From a virus, in the IMG/VR virus record IMGVR_UViG_3300008267_004387, positions 1 through 48,077 of that record: a DNA stretch of 48,077 nt. One strand, 5' to 3'. Below are positions 4,611 through 29,834 of this stretch, piece by piece (the stretch's first letter is position 1; every line of letters begins with the position of its first letter). The notes beneath the pieces were generated by a model that had not been told where the DNA came from, did not search any database, and saw only the letters and a program-made list of their open reading frames with translations. The position numbers and the translations under genes are program-made.

Positions 4611-5249
4611 TTAAGCTTTAATTACTGATTCTATTTTGCTTATATATGTGCCTACAAACATCCTAACCATGGTCATAGCTTTGTCAGTACGAACATAGAA
4701 GTAGCTACCACCGTAACTGCGTGTTCTAGTAAGGTCTTTTTCAGCTCTTTTTGTAAGTTTTATATTCTTGTTTTGTTTAGCCCAATTTATAAATGTACTG
4801 TTTTCTTGAGTAGTTTTACCTAGGAAAACCTTGTAATCGTAATTTAATTTTTTAACAATTACTGCTCCTTCTTTTAACGAAGGATTAGATTTATTGGGTA
4901 TACAAATATAACTTACACGGGCAGGATCTAGTCCTGCCAATGCTTCGATAGATTTACTGTTGTTAGTGTAGAAATTAAGATAAGGGTGTTCTACTCTTAT
5001 GTTGTAATCTGTAAAAGATGCCAAAGACTTTTGAAGGTCAAAGCAATATTCAATGTCTTCGTTACTTTTAATTTTAAGCCATAACGGTCGTTGTCCTGTT
5101 TTAAGGAGTTTTAATCTTGTTTCAACAAAGTCTAAATCGTTGCCTCTAAACCAATTTGCAGCAGGACACACCAGTACAATCTTGTATTGGTACTTGTTTG
5201 AAAATAAACTTACTGTGTCCTTAATTGTAATTGATTTATCAAGCTTCAA
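4611..5249 (-). CDS. Conserved phage protein of unknown function
   Basis: A 212-residue soluble protein starting from TTG (5249-5247). AAGGA lies nine bases upstream and the start overlaps the clpA stop by 11 bases, so translational coupling is likely. The sequence is mixed alpha/beta, with hydrophobic strands (YKIVLVCPAANWFRG, VSYICIPN) and a basic C-terminal half. No domain recognised. As last gene of the DnaJ-PDF-ClpA operon it may be part of the same early host-modification set, but nothing in the sequence tells what it does. Confidence 0.75.
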   Translation of the reverse strand: MKLDKSITIKDTVSLFSNKYQYKIVLVCPAANWFRGNDLDFVETRLKLLKTGQRPLWLKIKSNEDIEYCFDLQKSLASFTDYNIRVEHPYLNFYTNNSKSIEALAGLDPARVSYICIPNKSNPSLKEGAVIVKKLNYDYKVFLGKTTQENSTFINWAKQNKNIKLTKRAEKDLTRTRSYGGSYFYVRTDKAMTMVRMFVGTYISKIESVIKA

Positions 5250-7482
5250 TTGCTAACATCCTTGCAAGTTTAGGTTTAGAATTTAAAATAAGCTCACCGT
5301 TTTTCTCTGTAATAACCAGAGTGCCGCCTTCTTTTAAATCTCCAAACAACATCATTCTAGCTAACGGACGTTTAATTTCTTTGTCAATTATACGCTGTAA
5401 CGGTCTTGCGCCCATTTTAGCATCGAATCCTTTTTCAATTAACCAGTCAATGGCTTCGTCAGTAATTTTAAGTTTAACATTCTTTTCTTTAATTTGATCA
5501 CGCAGTTCAATGACAAATTTACCAACAATTTTAATCATTGTCTCTTTAGTTAACTTACCAAACGTTACCACAGCATCTAAACGATTACGGAATTCCGGAG
5601 CAAAGAACTTTTTAAGTGCTTTGTCGCTGTAGCTCTGTTCTTGTGTGCCAAAGCCAATAGCATTCTTTTCTGCGTCTTGTGCGCCAGCATTAGTTGTAAT
5701 AATAAGAATTAAATTGCGGCAGTCTGCTTGTTTTCCGTTGCTACCTGTGATAAAACCATTGTCCATCATCTGCAATAGAATAGTTGATACATCAGGGTGC
5801 GATTTTTCAATTTCGTCTAACAACAATACGCAGTTAGGACTTTCTTGAATTTTAGTAATCAGTAAACCAGCATTTTCTTCGAAGCCTACATATCCCGGAG
5901 GACTGCCAATCAGTTTACTCACCGAGTGCTTCTCCTGGTATTCACTCATATCAAATCGCACAAGTTTAACACCAAGATGTTTAGACAATGCTTTAGCAGT
6001 TTCAGTCTTACCAGTACCAGTTGGCCCCATGAATACAAAACTACCAACAGGTTTGTTTTCAGGCTTTAATCCAGCTCTGCTGACAAGAATCTTATCTACA
6101 ATTTCTATAATTGCACTATCCTGACCATAGACTTCTTGTTTAAGTTTATCTTCAAGTAGTGCTAGATTGCCGCTTTCTTGTTCTGCAATTTGCTCCACAG
6201 GCATTTGAATCATTCTTGCAATTTCGAATTGAATAGCGTTTTCATCAACAATTCTTTCGTCAGCAAGTTTGAGATTAAATCGACTACAAGCACAGTCAAT
6301 TAAATCAATTGCTTTGTCGGGTAACTTTTTATCAGTTTGATATTTTACACTCAACTTAATAGATGCACGAATGGCATCGTCTTTGATTTTAACATTATGA
6401 AACTGCTCGTAATACTTCTTAACACCTTTAAGAATCTGCAAGGTCATTTCTTGTGTTGGCTCATCAACTGTAATACGCTGGAATCGACGCATCAGCGCAC
6501 GATCCTTTTCAAAGTGCTTGCGATATTCTTCCCAAGTAGTACTAGCAACTACTTTGACATTGCCCTTGGCCAATGCAGGCTTCATCATGTTAGCAAGATC
6601 ATTGGCATTGTTATTTGCTGAACCAGCACCACTGATCATATGTGCTTCGTCAATGAACAAGACAGTCTTTCCTTTTTTACTGAGTCCTTTTAATACTGCT
6701 TTAAATCTTTCTTCAAAGTCGCCGCGATATTTACTACCTGCTAGCATAGCACTTACGTCTAAACTAAAGACTGTATATCCTTTAAGGAATTCAGGTACAG
6801 CACCGCTGACAATATTATAAGCCAATCCTTCTGCAATAGCAGTTTTACCAACACCTGGGTCGCCTACTAGAATACAGTTATTCTTACTGCGTCGACCTAA
6901 TGCTAGGGCAATGTTTTCTAATTCTTCAACGCGACCAATAACTGGATCAACTTTGCCCTTCCTTACTAGCTCGTTAAGATTGCTGGTAAAAGACTTAATA
7001 GCTCTTTCTCCGGCGTTGTCTCTAGGATCTTCTTCTTCAGGAGTTTCAACTTCGTTGTTTAGATAGTCTGCAAATTTTTCTTTGTCGATATCAGCTTGTT
7101 GAATATAATAACTGGCCCAACTGCGCTTTTCGCTCATCATAGCAAGGAAAACATCTGTGCTTTCAATACGTTGACGTCCGTTAAACAATACCTGTGTAAA
7201 TGCACGATTAAGAACACGTTCTACAGTTTGCGTCTTGCGAGGTTTAATATCTGTTATTGTGTCATTAACAATTTCGTCACATTTATTTTTTAAATAATGT
7301 TCGAGATTCTTTTTAATATATTCTGGGTCAGCGCCATACCCTTGAACACAGTTAAAAAAACTATCTTCACAGAGCATTGAAAATAACAGATGCTCTATGG
7401 TAAGATATTCGTGCTTTAACTGTTTAGCAACGTTAATTGCTTTTTCAAATACTAGCTGAAGCTCGCTGCTGGGTTCTACCAT
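5239..7482 (-). CDS. clpA: ClpA-like AAA+ unfoldase
   Basis: A 747-residue protein, close to E. coli ClpA (758). ClpA unfolds substrates and feeds them to the ClpP peptidase. Visible in order: Clp N-domain (about 1-145); first AAA module with Walker A GDPGVGKT (207-214) and Walker B FIDEA (277-281); second AAA module with Walker A GPTGTGKT (486-493) and Walker B LLLDEIEK (553-560). The tripeptide IGF at 609-611 aligns with the ClpA/ClpX loop that docks into ClpP. There is no ClpB-type middle coiled coil and no clpP in the window, so it probably works with host ClpP. Start supported by AAAGGA six bases upstream; it overlaps the PDF gene by 38 bases. Confidence 0.95.
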   Translation of the reverse strand: MVEPSSELQLVFEKAINVAKQLKHEYLTIEHLLFSMLCEDSFFNCVQGYGADPEYIKKNLEHYLKNKCDEIVNDTITDIKPRKTQTVERVLNRAFTQVLFNGRQRIESTDVFLAMMSEKRSWASYYIQQADIDKEKFADYLNNEVETPEEEDPRDNAGERAIKSFTSNLNELVRKGKVDPVIGRVEELENIALALGRRSKNNCILVGDPGVGKTAIAEGLAYNIVSGAVPEFLKGYTVFSLDVSAMLAGSKYRGDFEERFKAVLKGLSKKGKTVLFIDEAHMISGAGSANNNANDLANMMKPALAKGNVKVVASTTWEEYRKHFEKDRALMRRFQRITVDEPTQEMTLQILKGVKKYYEQFHNVKIKDDAIRASIKLSVKYQTDKKLPDKAIDLIDCACSRFNLKLADERIVDENAIQFEIARMIQMPVEQIAEQESGNLALLEDKLKQEVYGQDSAIIEIVDKILVSRAGLKPENKPVGSFVFMGPTGTGKTETAKALSKHLGVKLVRFDMSEYQEKHSVSKLIGSPPGYVGFEENAGLLITKIQESPNCVLLLDEIEKSHPDVSTILLQMMDNGFITGSNGKQADCRNLILIITTNAGAQDAEKNAIGFGTQEQSYSDKALKKFFAPEFRNRLDAVVTFGKLTKETMIKIVGKFVIELRDQIKEKNVKLKITDEAIDWLIEKGFDAKMGARPLQRIIDKEIKRPLARMMLFGDLKEGGTLVITEKNGELILNSKPKLARMLAIEA

Positions 7483-22951: not shown

Positions 22952-25936
22952 TCAGAATCTACGTATTCGACTCCTCGGCCAAGCAATTCCTGTAGAGGGT
23001 CTAGCACCAATAGCCTGTTTAGGCACCATTGTTCCTGTGTCTAAACGTTCCCTTTTGTAATACAGATACTTGTTAGGTGCGCCTTGTAAGTCTGTAGTAT
23101 CTGCCGGACCACCACTAGTTGCTGTAATCTGCCCAGTTTTAGCTACACTTAAAATGTATTCTTTAGCCTGTGTTTGATTCCAGTAAGGATTGTTTTCTAA
23201 AGCGCAGGCAATAACTCCGCAGACCTGCGGACTAGCCATACTTGTTCCACTGAGTTTCCCAAGGAAATAAGTTGTACCTGTGCTTCTAGAATCGCTTGTT
23301 CCGCTGGTAAGTGAGCTAATGATATTTGTACCTGGTGCAAATATATCAACGCCAGTACCACAATCACTGTATGATGCTTTGTAATCACCAGTAGTTACAT
23401 CTATAGAGCCAACACAGATGTTTGGTATATTATAACCTTGGTCACCAACTGGTCGATTAGGGTCAAATACATCATTGGCAGTAGGACTAGTACCTCGCAT
23501 ATAGTGGTAAGGGTTTGTTACACTACCCGGATATCTAGTAGCCATTTCAAAAGTATTGTCCCAATCAATATCACCTGGCAAACAATGTTTCCAACGACCG
23601 TTACCAGCCGCCCCTACAAACATAATTCCTTCTTGTATAGCATCTTCAATGTCACTGTCTAGCGCGGCAACACGTTTAGGAATTCGTTGACCACTAATAA
23701 ATCCCCAATCATTTAATTGTTGTGTTGTAAATCCTGTACCTGAGCTCTTGGCTGCATTACTGCCAATTTGTAGATCAATCTGAGTTGGATTGTCTTCGTA
23801 AAAGACATACTCGCAGACCATAGTTGGACTACCTAATGTCCCGCTTGTACCAGTTGATCCTTCCATTCTTACTCTGTAGGTTCTAGTTCCGTTGACTATG
23901 TTAATAGTCCCTGTCATAGTACCATGAATTTGACAAATATAATAAAGGGTAGACGGAGCATCATTAGGGACAGTAAATGTAATAGTGCCGCTTTGTGTTC
24001 CGTTATTAGTTACTCCGGTATTGTAAGCATCATTAGTTCCGGTAACTTGAGCTGTTTTAATCCAAAAAGGATGACCACTAGCACTGACATTGAATGTATA
24101 TGTTCCACCTCTTTTTAATGTTAAAGTAGGGTTAGATGATGAATTAATAGTATAGGCACTTGCACCAGAGTTAGTTACGGTATACGTTCCAGAGTCTACT
24201 CCTTCAACACCGTAGTAAATTCTTTGAACAGATCTATCCCCAGAGCATAACATTATTTTTGGTAGATTGGGCGAAGATACACTTATTCCGGAAAATATAG
24301 TTGACCCTTCGCCGAATGTAATATAAAAATTTGTTCCTACGTAGATGGTAGTATAACTTACTCCAAGGTATTCGATGCTAAATGGTAATGTAAGAGTCCA
24401 ATAACCGTCGTCATTATCTCCAAAACTAGGAGTTATAGCTGCCGTAAGAGCACCTGCTCCTAACAACGAATTAGTGATAGTTGATATACTAGCAGTAGCA
24501 GGGGTTGACTCAGTTGTGATAACAGTCACACTCATAGCCGCAGCAAATGTTGGACTAGGAGCAAGTGATACATCAATTGTTGATATAAATTTTAATGTAT
24601 AAATTTCGTTGTTTGGTAAGTTATAAGTAGGTTCTCCTACAATAACTTCAATAGTTCCGCCGTTAGTGGTACTATCAGGGCCTGCACTAAATGTATCTAT
24701 AGGAACAGGATTAGTGCCTTCGTAAATTTCAACTGCAACAGCTACACTCATTGATCCTGATACTGCATCTATAGCAACATTACTGTTAAAGTTTATATCT
24801 CCGGGTCCCTGAATAGTTACTTCGTATAGCGCATCTGGCCCAGTTGCTCCAAGCAGCGTAATATATGCCTGTTGTCCTTGTTGTAACCAAGTTTCGGGGA
24901 TTGTAAGAATATCGCCTGCCGGCGGCACGTAAGGCCCAGTTGTGGTAATTCTATTTCCGTGGTTTTCAAATCCGTTAAGTTGCGCCAATCTTTCACCGGA
25001 CGTACAAACTCCGCTAGTACCTAAAAAGGTTACAGCACCACTTGGCGTATAACGAGTTCCTCTGTAAGTAACAGCAGTGATATCACCAAAAGACCATTCA
25101 CTAGGAAATATGCTCATGCCCCAACTGTTATTTGTGATAGTAGGATTTTTTCTTCTAGTAGAAGGATTAATAGATTTGTTTTTGTGAAATTCTCTTACAT
25201 AATCCATTACATAGGGAAAGTTAAGATCACCATTTGCACCTGCAAAATAATAAATGTTATAAATGTTTGCTTCTCTCGCCCAGCCTTGTGTATTTCCAGC
25301 AATTGTTCCGCAGACATGAGTAGCATGATCAGAAATGCTGTATATGTAATTTCCTGCTGATGTACCTTTTACTGCGGGATCGTGTTGCAACCAATTATAA
25401 GAAACTGTTCTGGTTCCGCCAGTGCCATCTGCATTTACTGTATACTCAGGATGACCAAAAACAATGCCGTCACCGTCAATGGCTATCACATCAACATTTT
25501 TTCCAGTTGCAGGTAATTTAATTGTTCCTGTTTGATTGTTAGTGCCATTGCTACCCCATCCAGATCTATTTTCTCCTTCATAGCAACGAAGGAGCCCCCA
25601 GTTAAGCATGGTGTTGCCAGTGCTGGAACTCTTATTCCAATTACTGGATGTTTGTTCCCGCAATACAGTTAATCCTGCACTAATACCTAAATATCTTGGA
25701 TGAAGGACAACATTTCTTACTCGGGAATCTTTTCTTAATTCTAATGATTCCCACTCGGTAAGCCAATAATGCGTATTTCTACTAGTGTCTCTTTTTTCTT
25801 TAACTTCTACTGATCTTTCTGGGACATATCCATTACCTCCCAAATTTTCCATATCGCTATAGAATTGTTCTAAATCTTCATGCTTAAAAAGAGTTACAAT
25901 ATATTCTTTTTTAGCTGCATAATCTTTCATTGTCAT
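22952..25936 (-). CDS. Virion-block subtilisin-like protease with cupredoxin-like insert
   Basis: A 994-residue protein with an S8 peptidase scaffold. Residues 1-90 resemble a propeptide (RNTHYWLT...LRKDSRVRNVVLHP) shared with the next gene. The triad is D154 (VIAIDGDG), H204 (DHATHVCGTIAG) and S899 (GTSMASPQV); the NNSWG and AAGNG motifs match the S8 fold. Between the N-terminal half and the second half is a long insertion (about 300-730). It contains a cupredoxin-like domain with H622, C668, H671 and M674 in the order H...C-x2-H-x2-M of type 1 copper sites. The C-terminus ends in SRIRRF. SD AAGGAT precedes the start. In the adhesin block, an extracellular processing or surface-degrading protease is likely. 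Confidence 0.88.
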   Translation of the reverse strand: MTMKDYAAKKEYIVTLFKHEDLEQFYSDMENLGGNGYVPERSVEVKEKRDTSRNTHYWLTEWESLELRKDSRVRNVVLHPRYLGISAGLTVLREQTSSNWNKSSSTGNTMLNWGLLRCYEGENRSGWGSNGTNNQTGTIKLPATGKNVDVIAIDGDGIVFGHPEYTVNADGTGGTRTVSYNWLQHDPAVKGTSAGNYIYSISDHATHVCGTIAGNTQGWAREANIYNIYYFAGANGDLNFPYVMDYVREFHKNKSINPSTRRKNPTITNNSWGMSIFPSEWSFGDITAVTYRGTRYTPSGAVTFLGTSGVCTSGERLAQLNGFENHGNRITTTGPYVPPAGDILTIPETWLQQGQQAYITLLGATGPDALYEVTIQGPGDINFNSNVAIDAVSGSMSVAVAVEIYEGTNPVPIDTFSAGPDSTTNGGTIEVIVGEPTYNLPNNEIYTLKFISTIDVSLAPSPTFAAAMSVTVITTESTPATASISTITNSLLGAGALTAAITPSFGDNDDGYWTLTLPFSIEYLGVSYTTIYVGTNFYITFGEGSTIFSGISVSSPNLPKIMLCSGDRSVQRIYYGVEGVDSGTYTVTNSGASAYTINSSSNPTLTLKRGGTYTFNVSASGHPFWIKTAQVTGTNDAYNTGVTNNGTQSGTITFTVPNDAPSTLYYICQIHGTMTGTINIVNGTRTYRVRMEGSTGTSGTLGSPTMVCEYVFYEDNPTQIDLQIGSNAAKSSGTGFTTQQLNDWGFISGQRIPKRVAALDSDIEDAIQEGIMFVGAAGNGRWKHCLPGDIDWDNTFEMATRYPGSVTNPYHYMRGTSPTANDVFDPNRPVGDQGYNIPNICVGSIDVTTGDYKASYSDCGTGVDIFAPGTNIISSLTSGTSDSRSTGTTYFLGKLSGTSMASPQVCGVIACALENNPYWNQTQAKEYILSVAKTGQITATSGGPADTTDLQGAPNKYLYYKRERLDTGTMVPKQAIGARPSTGIAWPRSRIRRF

Positions 25937-25948
25937 ACTGCTAAATCC

Positions 25949-28489
25949 TTATGTTCTTCTTATTTTAACTCTTGGATAAGTTATTCCATCAGTTGGTCTT
26001 ACTCCTAATGCGTAGGAAGGAAATACTGTTCCCTGTTCTGCTCGATCTTTATAATAGTAGAGTATAAGATTATTACCGTCTTGCAGTGATGTTACATCGG
26101 TATAACCGTCGAATGATTCAAACATCTTTCCAAAAGTTGCATGTGACAGCAAATATGTTTTAATTTGACTTTGAGTAAATGCAGGATATTTTTCTAACAC
26201 CAGCGCAAGATAACCAGTTACCTGTGCAGTGGCCATACTTGTACCGTTGTATTTTTGATAGGTAGAACCGTTTTCAGTAATAGTATCTGACGAACTTGTA
26301 GGTCCAGAATCACCAGTATTGTCATATACCCCAGAAATAATATTCATTCCCGGTGCATATATATCTACCCTTGGTCCAGTACTAGAGGCCTGCATTTTGT
26401 ATTCTGAGCTAGAGCTTGACAGGGCGCCCACACAAATTACCCCTGGGTGTGCGCCTGGGGTTGGTCCTCTATGATAATAGTAAGGTATTCCGTTGTCTAG
26501 AAAATAATTGTCATAATCAATGCCACCTGGAACATCTATTTTATGAGAATCATTGCCTGCTGAACAGACAAATATAATACCGTCATTTATTGCGTCATCC
26601 ATGTCTGCTTCAAAAGAAGCATCGCGTTGCGGCGCATTATTGTAGTTAATGTTAATACCATACGACAATAATTGTTCGTTGGTAAATTCACCTCTGTAGT
26701 TTGAGTTTTGATCTACGTGAAGATCAATAGTAGTATTGTCTACTCCACTACCGCTACCTGAAGATTCATAAAATGTCATTTCCCAAAGTACTGTAGGAGA
26801 ACCATCAATACCACCGTTAGCAGCATCGTGCCCTTCCCAACGTACTCTAAATGTTCTATTTGGAGTAACGCCGCTAGTTTGTGTATATATTCTTTGGCAA
26901 CTTCTGTCTCCAGCTGAAATATGTATTTTTCTAGTCTGCGGTCCTTCTGCACCAACAGCCACTGTGTAACATCCAGCAGCACTACCCCCAAATAATACAA
27001 AACTGTTTGAACTGATCCATATAGTACCTAGGTTAGGATCCGCACCAATCTGTGATGGACCATAAGTTGTTCCTAGATAGGAAATGTCAAACGGCAAAGA
27101 AAGTTGCCAAGCAGCATCATCATACTCGTCTACGCCAGTAGGGCTTGAACCAGTGGGAGCACCTACCAAGGTCATACCTGTTCTACCTAACATATTCTTT
27201 GACAATGTGTTTGTTGTGGCACTTCCAGAAGCGGTAGTAATTCTATTGCCACCGTTGACTACGGATTGCAAAGTAGCTAATCTTACAGTGGCACTACACA
27301 CTCCAGAATAACCAGTGTCAATCTGCGGATTACCAAGACTCTCTGGTGTTATTGTCTGTCCTTGATATCTTATGCTGCTAAATCGAGATTTTAAATTACC
27401 TGTATAAGGATTATTTTTTCCAATAATTCTAGTACCTAGACCCCAGCTACAATTTACTATTGTGGGATTACTAGTCCCTTTGTTGTTGTGCCATGCACGA
27501 AGGTAGTCAATAACATATCCTAACGGAGTATATTGATTAGCTGATCCAGGATTTAAATCATAGTTTGTAGTATCGTGTCTTAAATTAAATAAATTGGCAT
27601 CTTTGGCCCAGCCTTGATTTTCACCTGCTATGATGCCAGCTACGTGAGTAGCGTGATTGTTACCACCCGTGTAACTATCACCTGGCGTGGTTGTATAATA
27701 TTTGTATTTGCCAACCCAGGTGCCTGTAGCTGATTTGGTATTTTCCTGTGCTCCGGTATTGGTGTATCTAAACTTATCAGTGACTCCGCCATTGATACTA
27801 GCTGATACAGCAGTTATTGCAACATCTGTAGCATTGTAACTTGAATCGCTGGTACAGGTAACGCTGACAATCATACCAACAGCAAGGCTGTGTGCTCCGT
27901 TAGTGGTCACTGTTGCTCTATTACTACTGTCTCTTTCAACATTAGTAATGTTAACTGCTGTCCCGCGAACCGCAGCATCGTGATTGGCATACCAATCGTA
28001 CTGTGTAATTTTTCCAGTAATTTCAAAATGTGTTGGATACGCAATGTCATCTAGTACAACAACGTCAACATCGAGACCAGTTTCAGTAAAGTTAACACTG
28101 GCTGTTTTTTCTGTAAGCGCAGTTTCTGAACCCCAGTTTTCTGGATTAGTTCTTAAAACAGATCTGTATAGACCCCAGTTTCTTTGCCCAATGGCTGGAA
28201 GATCTGCTCTGCTGAATGTACCCGACTGTACAGCATGAAGTTCGTTGACTAGATTTGTTTCTTGTAAATCTAATTCAACATGTTGTACACGGGGATCTTG
28301 TTTTAATTTTTCTGCTTCAGCATTGGTTAAACGATAATGTGTATTACGACTTATACCTCTTCGGTGAACACATTCAACGGATCTAGTAGGAGCAAATTCA
28401 AATTGCCCCTCTGTTTCCATATCCTGGTAGAATTGTTCTAGGTCACTTTTATTTTTAAGAGTGACCACATAATGTCTGTAAATTGCCAT
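25949..28489 (-). CDS. Virion-block subtilisin-like protease, paralogue of the preceding
   Basis: An 846-residue S8-type protein and clear paralogue of its neighbour: both have the N-terminal RNTHY-LT and DPRV/DSRV segments, both have exactly 96 residues from the catalytic Ser to the C-terminus, and both end in a basic I-R-R-F/T. Triad: D147 (VVVLDD), H279 (NNHATHVAGIIAG), S751 (GTSMATAQV), with CSAGNDSHK and NCSWG motifs. It lacks the cupredoxin-like domain. Instead it has an insertion between D147 and H279 (about 178-260, ITNVERDSSNRATVTT...) like beta domains of marine-phage structural proteins. No SD; starts one base after the upstream stop. Confidence 0.88.
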   Translation of the reverse strand: MAIYRHYVVTLKNKSDLEQFYQDMETEGQFEFAPTRSVECVHRRGISRNTHYRLTNAEAEKLKQDPRVQHVELDLQETNLVNELHAVQSGTFSRADLPAIGQRNWGLYRSVLRTNPENWGSETALTEKTASVNFTETGLDVDVVVLDDIAYPTHFEITGKITQYDWYANHDAAVRGTAVNITNVERDSSNRATVTTNGAHSLAVGMIVSVTCTSDSSYNATDVAITAVSASINGGVTDKFRYTNTGAQENTKSATGTWVGKYKYYTTTPGDSYTGGNNHATHVAGIIAGENQGWAKDANLFNLRHDTTNYDLNPGSANQYTPLGYVIDYLRAWHNNKGTSNPTIVNCSWGLGTRIIGKNNPYTGNLKSRFSSIRYQGQTITPESLGNPQIDTGYSGVCSATVRLATLQSVVNGGNRITTASGSATTNTLSKNMLGRTGMTLVGAPTGSSPTGVDEYDDAAWQLSLPFDISYLGTTYGPSQIGADPNLGTIWISSNSFVLFGGSAAGCYTVAVGAEGPQTRKIHISAGDRSCQRIYTQTSGVTPNRTFRVRWEGHDAANGGIDGSPTVLWEMTFYESSGSGSGVDNTTIDLHVDQNSNYRGEFTNEQLLSYGININYNNAPQRDASFEADMDDAINDGIIFVCSAGNDSHKIDVPGGIDYDNYFLDNGIPYYYHRGPTPGAHPGVICVGALSSSSSEYKMQASSTGPRVDIYAPGMNIISGVYDNTGDSGPTSSSDTITENGSTYQKYNGTSMATAQVTGYLALVLEKYPAFTQSQIKTYLLSHATFGKMFESFDGYTDVTSLQDGNNLILYYYKDRAEQGTVFPSYALGVRPTDGITYPRVKIRRT

Positions 28490-28490
28490 A

Positions 28491-29834
28491 TCATACTTCT
28501 AGTTGTAATAATGTAAGTGTTACTGTAATAGTTGTAGTACTGCCACTTTTATTAGTTACTCTTACAGGAATAGTTGTTGTTACTGGGCTTTCGTCGTTGA
28601 ACCCTAGTGTTGCAGGACTGATTAAAATAGTTTCAGCGCCTGTGGTAATAACTTCTGCAATAACACCAGCGCCTGGGCTAGGATCGACCCCTTCTGCTCT
28701 AGAAGCATCTGCTATTCTTGCTGCTTCGCTGGTGTAAATTCTTACCCATGCAGCAGCACTTGTTTGAACTTTTAACAGTGAATAAGATTTAAAACCAGTA
28801 ATGTTAATTGGACCAGTACCGCCCTCTAATAAACTGCCAGTTGTGGCTGCGGCAGTAGTTCTTGAAAATCCGCCACTGGCTGGCAAGTCATCCCATATTA
28901 CGCTACCGGCACCGTCTGTGGTCAATACTTGACCAATAGTACCGTCTGTGGCAGGCATAGTAAAGCCTGGGAAGTCTGTAGTACCATCGGTATTAAACTG
29001 CCAATTTTGATAACCTACATTGTTAGCATCAAGGCGAACTGTGAGTCCGGTTTGATTAATATACATGGTATTAAGGGTAGTTGTAGTATCAAAAATATCA
29101 CCAGGTGCAGGCGTTCCGCCCCCAGTGTCGGCACCAGCTGATATGCTGACCCAAGATATTTCGGCACCACCACCGTCACCTGCACCTGCAATGATCCAAG
29201 GGTAGCTTCCGTCGCCTTGAATACGAGAATTGCCCTCACCGTCGACAGCTAGTTCTATGCGACCTAATGCATTAAGGGTAAATGTAAATGATCCATTTGC
29301 CAGTGTGCTGCCGCCTGCACCTGTAGAATCAGCCTGATTGGTCCAAAAGGTTCCATCCCATTTAAGAACTTCACCAGTTGTGACAGGAGTTACAATGTTA
29401 ACATCTAATAAGTCGTCAATGTTAGCTGCGCCACCGCCTGCATCAGCTTGATTGGTCCAGAAGGTTCCGTCAAATTTAAGAACTTGACCAGACGTAGCAG
29501 TGCCAACAATATTAACATCTAACAGATCGTCAACGTTGACTGCGCCACCGCCACCACCTGATGGTGTAGCCGGCTTCCAAGTGTTGCCAGCAGTATCCCA
29601 TGTAAGCACTTGCCCGTCTGTTGGCGAAAGTGGAGATACATCAAATAAATCTTGTAGACGTAGACTTTCGGCACCGCCTGCATATTCCAATGCTGTCCAT
29701 GTAGTGGTACCGTCACCTACTTTAAATTTACCCGTATCGGTTTCAAACCCAGGTTCTCCTGCCGATAATACCACGGTTCCGTTTGAGTTCCACTCCGCAG
29801 CAGTTCCTCTTCTTAATTGAATTTTTACAGTCAT
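28491..29834 (-). CDS. Mtd-N-type tail fibre protein
   Basis: A 447-residue protein. The N-terminal 45 residues (KIQLRRGTAAEWNSN, AGEPGFETDTGKFKVGDG, TTWTAL) match the N-terminal domain first described in the Bordetella phage major tropism determinant, widespread on phage fibre proteins. Two imperfect internal repeats follow (DDLLDVNIVGTATSGQVLKF and DDLLDVNIVTPVTTGEVLKW, each with DGTFWTNQAD). The C-terminal 120 residues form a different beta domain. SD AAGGAT is eleven bases upstream. It probably participates in host recognition. Confidence 0.85.
   Translation of the reverse strand: MTVKIQLRRGTAAEWNSNGTVVLSAGEPGFETDTGKFKVGDGTTTWTALEYAGGAESLRLQDLFDVSPLSPTDGQVLTWDTAGNTWKPATPSGGGGGAVNVDDLLDVNIVGTATSGQVLKFDGTFWTNQADAGGGAANIDDLLDVNIVTPVTTGEVLKWDGTFWTNQADSTGAGGSTLANGSFTFTLNALGRIELAVDGEGNSRIQGDGSYPWIIAGAGDGGGAEISWVSISAGADTGGGTPAPGDIFDTTTTLNTMYINQTGLTVRLDANNVGYQNWQFNTDGTTDFPGFTMPATDGTIGQVLTTDGAGSVIWDDLPASGGFSRTTAAATTGSLLEGGTGPINITGFKSYSLLKVQTSAAAWVRIYTSEAARIADASRAEGVDPSPGAGVIAEVITTGAETILISPATLGFNDESPVTTTIPVRVTNKSGSTTTITVTLTLLQLEV

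Follow-up and report, generated by a model that had tools for sequence, protein, structure and literature searches.

Enzymes known from phage tails act on sugars and the cell wall, and in fibres of the T4 gp37/gp38 type a variable tip adhesin, encoded just behind the fibre gene, is attached at the fibre end. In a review devoted to the enzymes that tailed phages use for entry (PMC6116005), the main text contains none of the words protease, proteolytic, and proteinase. S8 peptidases have been mentioned in cyanophages (PMC3037559), and single-copy homologues of the proteases described here are already annotated in many cyanophage genomes, among them the phrog_9158 'subtilisin-like serine proteases' of S-H38, S-CREM1, S-WAM2, and Sf-FR1. 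The papers searched contained no study of the function of these phrog_9158 proteins.

A more distant S8 homologue, gene 228 of phage S-SCSM1 (PQC12_gp144), is marked '(virion protein)' in the phage record. Mass spectrometry identified 45 virion proteins in this phage (PMC9602691). The record carries 48 such labels by our count, including three non-structural proteins that the paper names as detected and omitting several predicted baseplate proteins; the labels thus seem to track mass-spectrometry detection, albeit imperfectly.

Here, we describe two adjacent subtilase genes in a complete IMG/VR virus record of 48,077 bases (the window, meaning the whole stretch of DNA analysed), which belongs to a T4-like virus of bacteria. 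The phrog_9158 cyanophage proteins belong to the same family, occupy the same slot behind a fibre gene with the C-terminal domain (CTD) described below, and resemble the window pair in their prodomain-like N-terminus and in the length of their C-terminus; they differ in being single copies without its inserted modules and in having a loop of only 76–91 residues, rather than approximately 300–500, from the SWG motif to the oxyanion Asn. Gene 228 of S-SCSM1 shares the I9-like N-terminus and an S8 core with conserved catalytic motifs, but it lacks both an upstream CTD and a C-terminal tail and has LamG lectin domains appended. Secreted subtilases such as proteinase K, aqualysin, and PCSK9 share the catalytic fold and prodomain, whereas the window pair has no evident signal peptide, a huge insertion between the substrate strand and the oxyanion Asn, and a phage-specific tail. 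The arrangement resembles T4 gp37/gp38-type pairs in layout; here, the protein encoded second is a proteolytic enzyme that bears a tail peptide. In the non-subscription literature, we found no description of the CTD, of the tail common to these proteases, or of the paired genes. A first-pass annotation had been aware of no well-described counterpart, which holds for the papers searched, but the annotated cyanophage homologues and the reported S8 peptidases qualify it.

Two catalytically intact subtilases

Subtilase 1, the first of the tandem (25949..28489, (-) strand), is an 846-residue protein matching Pfam Peptidase_S8 (4.6e-33; 115 bits) and phrog_9158 (E 8.6e-70). Subtilase 2 (22952..25936, (-) strand) follows after a gap of 12 nt, comprises 994 residues, and matches the same profiles (8.5e-21, 75 bits, against a gathering score of 21.8; phrog_9158 E 3.7e-119). 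The first-pass annotation had assigned complete triads to both, and these were confirmed as D147/H279/S751 and D154/H204/S899, respectively, in canonical order with their motifs and with the Ser inside GTSMA; an oxyanion Asn was additionally located between His and Ser (N646 and N779).

Relatives had been named as the place to look for loss of triad residues. In a 99-row alignment, D, H, N, and S were aligned in every intact S8 relative examined, the two exceptions being one non-S8 row and one truncated ORF. Against the close relative L001, whole-gene dN/dS was 0.064 for subtilase 1 and 0.089 for subtilase 2, with values of 0.034–0.067 in the catalytic core of the two genes; both are under strong purifying selection. 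Taken together with residue conservation, these ratios show that the intact triads are not due to chance and that the enzymes are under selection, ruling out degenerate pseudo-enzymes.

The propeptide-like N-terminus that the annotation had seen in both proteins is borne out by structure prediction. Both models begin with a beta-alpha-beta-beta-alpha-beta arrangement, which agrees with an I9-like prodomain fold at about residues 5–73 of subtilase 1 (28271..28477, (-) strand) and about residues 9–78 of subtilase 2 (25703..25912, (-) strand; also aligned to subtilase 1). Pfam I9 remained below its cut-off of 21.2 bits for subtilase 1 (14.1 bits, E 0.078) and gave no match for subtilase 2. In Foldseek searches, the 846-mer model matched PCSK9 and unautoprocessed pro-subtilisin E, the predicted prodomain aligning to the latter (3whi), and it reached a TM score of 0.77–0.80 by target length against the subtilisin-like proteinase 1s2n, notwithstanding its inserts. 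A subtilisin fold was also found for the 994-mer, with a lower TM score of only about 0.44.

A fibre domain shared by the protease loci

One nucleotide upstream of subtilase 1 ends the gene for a 447-residue fibre protein (28491..29834, (-) strand) with a Pfam Mtd_N match at its N-terminus (1.3e-16), and placement of the pair in the tail-fibre block, as originally proposed, is thus upheld. Across the loci, S8 genes are almost always located among fibre genes. The C-terminal part of the fibre protein (residues 321–447; 28494..28874, (-) strand) is the putative docking domain; the window contains no other CTD, and a search of the PDB returned no match for this domain. Of 79 distinct upstream neighbours, 78 end in such a domain of about 125 residues, and most of them lie only a few nucleotides from the protease gene; their N-terminal fibre part varies in length.

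Three IMG/VR scans, seeded with S8-linked or related sequences, allowed us to ask what follows unique CTD genes with downstream data: the next gene encoded an S8 protease in 129 cases, a member of another large family in 44, an S53 protease in one, and something else in one. The large family consists of proteins of 767–851 residues without recognised domains, and possibly represents an alternative tip protein. In some of the same viruses, a second CTD fibre gene is followed by such a protein without Pfam domains (L110 8572-10875, L113 7172-9502, L114 7855-10410, L103 1302-3746), and some members carry the cupredoxin-like domain described below. An apparent CTD–S8 fusion in L334 was left out of the evidence.

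The S53 protease of L127 (5377-6654) resembles kumamolisin and served as the query for a scan that recovered further S53 genes, placing sedolisins in the CTD slot in L337–L345 as well. These proteins conserve Glu/Asp/Asp/Ser and belong to a different protease family (Ser-Glu-Asp) from the window S8 pair, with which they share the genomic slot and the C-terminal tail; S53 and S8 have a related fold (clan SB). Because the L127 protein begins near the mature kumamolisin N-terminus, it has no S53 prodomain. S53 genes lacking an upstream CTD also exist (L346–L349), and their C-terminus differs.

A C-terminal tail limited to CTD-linked proteases

Both window proteins end in a tail of two repeats, DRAEQGTVFPSYALGVRPTDGITYPRVKIRRT in subtilase 1 (25952..26047, (-) strand) and ERLDTGTMVPKQAIGARPSTGIAWPRSRIRRF in subtilase 2 (22955..23050, (-) strand). 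In CTD-linked S8 proteins, this tail typically comprises two RxxxGxx[YWF]PR-like repeats over about 32 residues (for example, RLDTGTMVPKQAIGARPSTGIAWPRSRIRRF), and CTD-linked S53 proteins share it (for example, LRPTSGSVFPNHKFDNRPTSGQVWPRTKTL). In tandems whose ends are complete, each of the two proteins has it without exception.

In non-redundant sets, the strict motif occurred in 141 of 184 S8 proteins with a CTD and in none of the six without one, a split that is phylogenetically confounded since the CTD-less S8 proteins form one divergent group. The S53 proteins, for which this holds less, split 9/9 with a CTD against 0/3 without, with a chance of about 1/220 by simple arithmetic. The 43 CTD-linked S8 proteins that fail the strict pattern are mostly of marine cyanophage types, and in many of them a [YF]PR variant can be recognised. 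Among 505 further proteins with lengths from 300 aa upwards, not one carried the motif, which rules out a general phage background; when shorter ORFs were included, it appeared in 6 of 1128 other proteins, none with two repeats.

The simplest reading is that this sequence serves as a docking tail for the fibre CTD. Model confidence is low at the very C-terminus (residues 977–994 of the 994-mer and 816–846 of the 846-mer), which would fit a peptide that folds upon binding.

Loops and inserted modules

The relatives share a fixed frame, mostly with about 143–165 residues before the Asp and, where C-terminal additions are lacking, 94–103 after the Ser. In the window pair, exactly 96 residues had been reported to follow the catalytic Ser: the equality stands, but 95 residues lie beyond the Ser and 96 is reached only if it is counted. 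Given the similar post-Ser lengths across relatives, the equal C-termini of the pair are a family trait.

Four surface loops vary around this frame. The D–H loop spans 45–63 residues in relatives, or about 130 with an extra module; the SWG–Asn loop spans 71–91 in single-copy cyanophages, approximately 270–300 in first-copy, and approximately 400–616 in second-copy types; the N–S loop spans about 95–121 or about 190; and the C-terminal end of other relatives may bear LamG, YHYH, or Gly-rich domains. The insertion before H279 described for the 846-mer was recovered as a D–H module of about 85 residues (residues about 176–262; 27704..27964, (-) strand), with a D–H spacing of 132 as against 45–53 for the majority of first-copy relatives; this module was also detected in relatives where the long loop is N–S instead. 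The insertion after the His of the 994-mer is likewise real, but it is not confined to that protein. Both proteins carry one at a shared position, the stretch from SWG to the oxyanion Asn, which measures 507 residues in the 994-mer and 297 in the 846-mer, with spacing counts placing the insertions at about residues 275–750 of subtilase 2 (23687..25114, (-) strand; mostly beta in the model) and about residues 352–620 of subtilase 1 (26630..27436, (-) strand). In subtilisin numbering, this site lies directly behind the substrate-binding 125–127 strand, and the modules therefore border the active site.

Nested within the subtilase 2 insertion is a cupredoxin-like domain of 101 residues (23889..24191, (-) strand; phrog_677 match; H..C-x2-H-x2-M). 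A sequence search of the PDB gave only chance-level matches for it, the best being to a Cu nitrite reductase (E 0.38). This domain is exactly absent from L006/L007, where a 303-nt in-frame gap interrupts DNA that is otherwise about 99% identical. Its clean presence or absence between such similar genomes demonstrates that module exchange in these proteases is real, in line with the module swapping envisaged in the first-pass annotation. In L004, another 50-aa stretch of the same insertion is missing.

Age and distribution of the tandem

A search for tandem subtilases had been suggested for marine phage genomes. Two protease scans revealed adjacent S8 pairs in 28 other IMG/VR contigs, all distinct, with intergenic spacings of 5–49 nt; a single chimaeric assembly is thereby rejected. 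In the phylogenetic tree, first copies form one clade, save for one locus of different layout (L036), and second copies fall mainly into another, shared with many single-copy viruses. Separate clades and recurrence of the pair point to an old tandem inherited as a unit. Gene duplication, as initially proposed, therefore holds as regards paralogy, but a recent local duplication is rejected because the copies fall in separate old clades.

A 383-kb tandem record contains no S8 genes beyond the pair, and some records of 163–364 kb contain a single S8 gene. At two loci, a second, divergent S8 gene of 567 aa with neither CTD nor tail lies about 1.2 kb downstream (L036 5253-6956, L064 11817-13520). 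The first-copy subtilase lacks the Ser motif in one contig, L014 (1451-3721), and is split in two in another, L038 (1304-2344 and 2503-3786), reflecting decay or assembly error.

A scan of a genome collection returned two CTD+S8 contigs, one in a Bacteroidetes MAG (L358) and one in a Rhodobacteraceae bin (L359), which are possibly a hint of the host or misbinned phage. The candidate host marker psbA was set aside: of 12 linked records, two carried it (L309, L279), and the remaining ones, the 383-kb tandem virus among them, did not.

Proposed role and alternatives

The first-pass annotation had left three roles open: fibre processing, cleavage of host surface proteins, or service as surface-borne adhesins. 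The fibre CTD, the shared tail, and the replacement of S8 by S53 favour a fibre-attached protease among these options. We consider it slightly better than an even prospect that both are competent subtilases at the fibre tip, docked by their tails on the CTD and cutting or probing host surface proteins. Encoded directly behind the fibre gene, they would be synthesised in zymogen form, their prodomain being I9-like; each would then bind the CTD of about 125 residues through its C-terminal tail of about 32 residues and so become part of the virion. The beta-rich modules beside the substrate-binding strand would let the two enzymes differ in reach or target and would place targets at the active site, and a single type of fibre equipped with both proteases could thus cut or probe two sets of host surface proteins during adsorption.

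The strict pairing of protease and CTD genes, the maintenance of proteolysis at that slot when S53 stands in for S8, and a prodomain control suited to an enzyme made inside the cell would equally fit maturation proteases that trim the fibre during morphogenesis (for example, with the CTD as an assembly domain), much as the prohead protease serves the head, with no need for host contact. We regard this as rather unlikely: about one-quarter of the sampled CTD genes are followed by the family without a recognised protease domain, records of 65–383 kb have two proteases per single CTD gene, and the diversity of modules (cupredoxin-like, LamG, YHYH, and Gly-rich) exceeds the needs of a trimming enzyme.

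Less probable still is an adhesin built on a subtilase scaffold, which would cleave itself once in the manner of PCSK9, keep its prodomain bound, and from then on serve solely for binding at the fibre tip. PCSK9 and prodomain-bound structures are indeed among the fold matches, large modules adjoin the active site, and modules are gained and lost as in receptor-binding proteins; however, the catalytic residues are invariant across very divergent relatives, and an S53 protease with an intact catalytic set occupies the same slot. Although many phage proteases act inside cells, intracellular or released enzymes attacking host proteins outside the virion, with fibre-gene proximity reflecting operon structure only, are very improbable given the fibre-block placement, the CTD linkage and tail, and the 'virion protein' label of the S-SCSM1 homologue.

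For the preferred reading of fibre-tip proteases, an extension to aquatic T4-like viruses in general is plausible, if somewhat short of an even chance. Here, the fibre CTD would be a socket and the two-repeat tail a plug, through which interchangeable S8 or S53 proteases with swappable modules are mounted one or two at a time and digest host surface proteins on arrival. If true, proteases mounted on a fibre by a recognisable docking tail would suggest that surface proteins act as a barrier to entry, and the CTD and tail would provide a sequence signature for such cassettes in uncultured viruses. The idea is testable in existing Synechococcus phages.

Elsewhere in the window, positions 5239-7482 contain a 747-aa ORF matching phrog_4871 'ATP-dependent protease' (E 5e-251).
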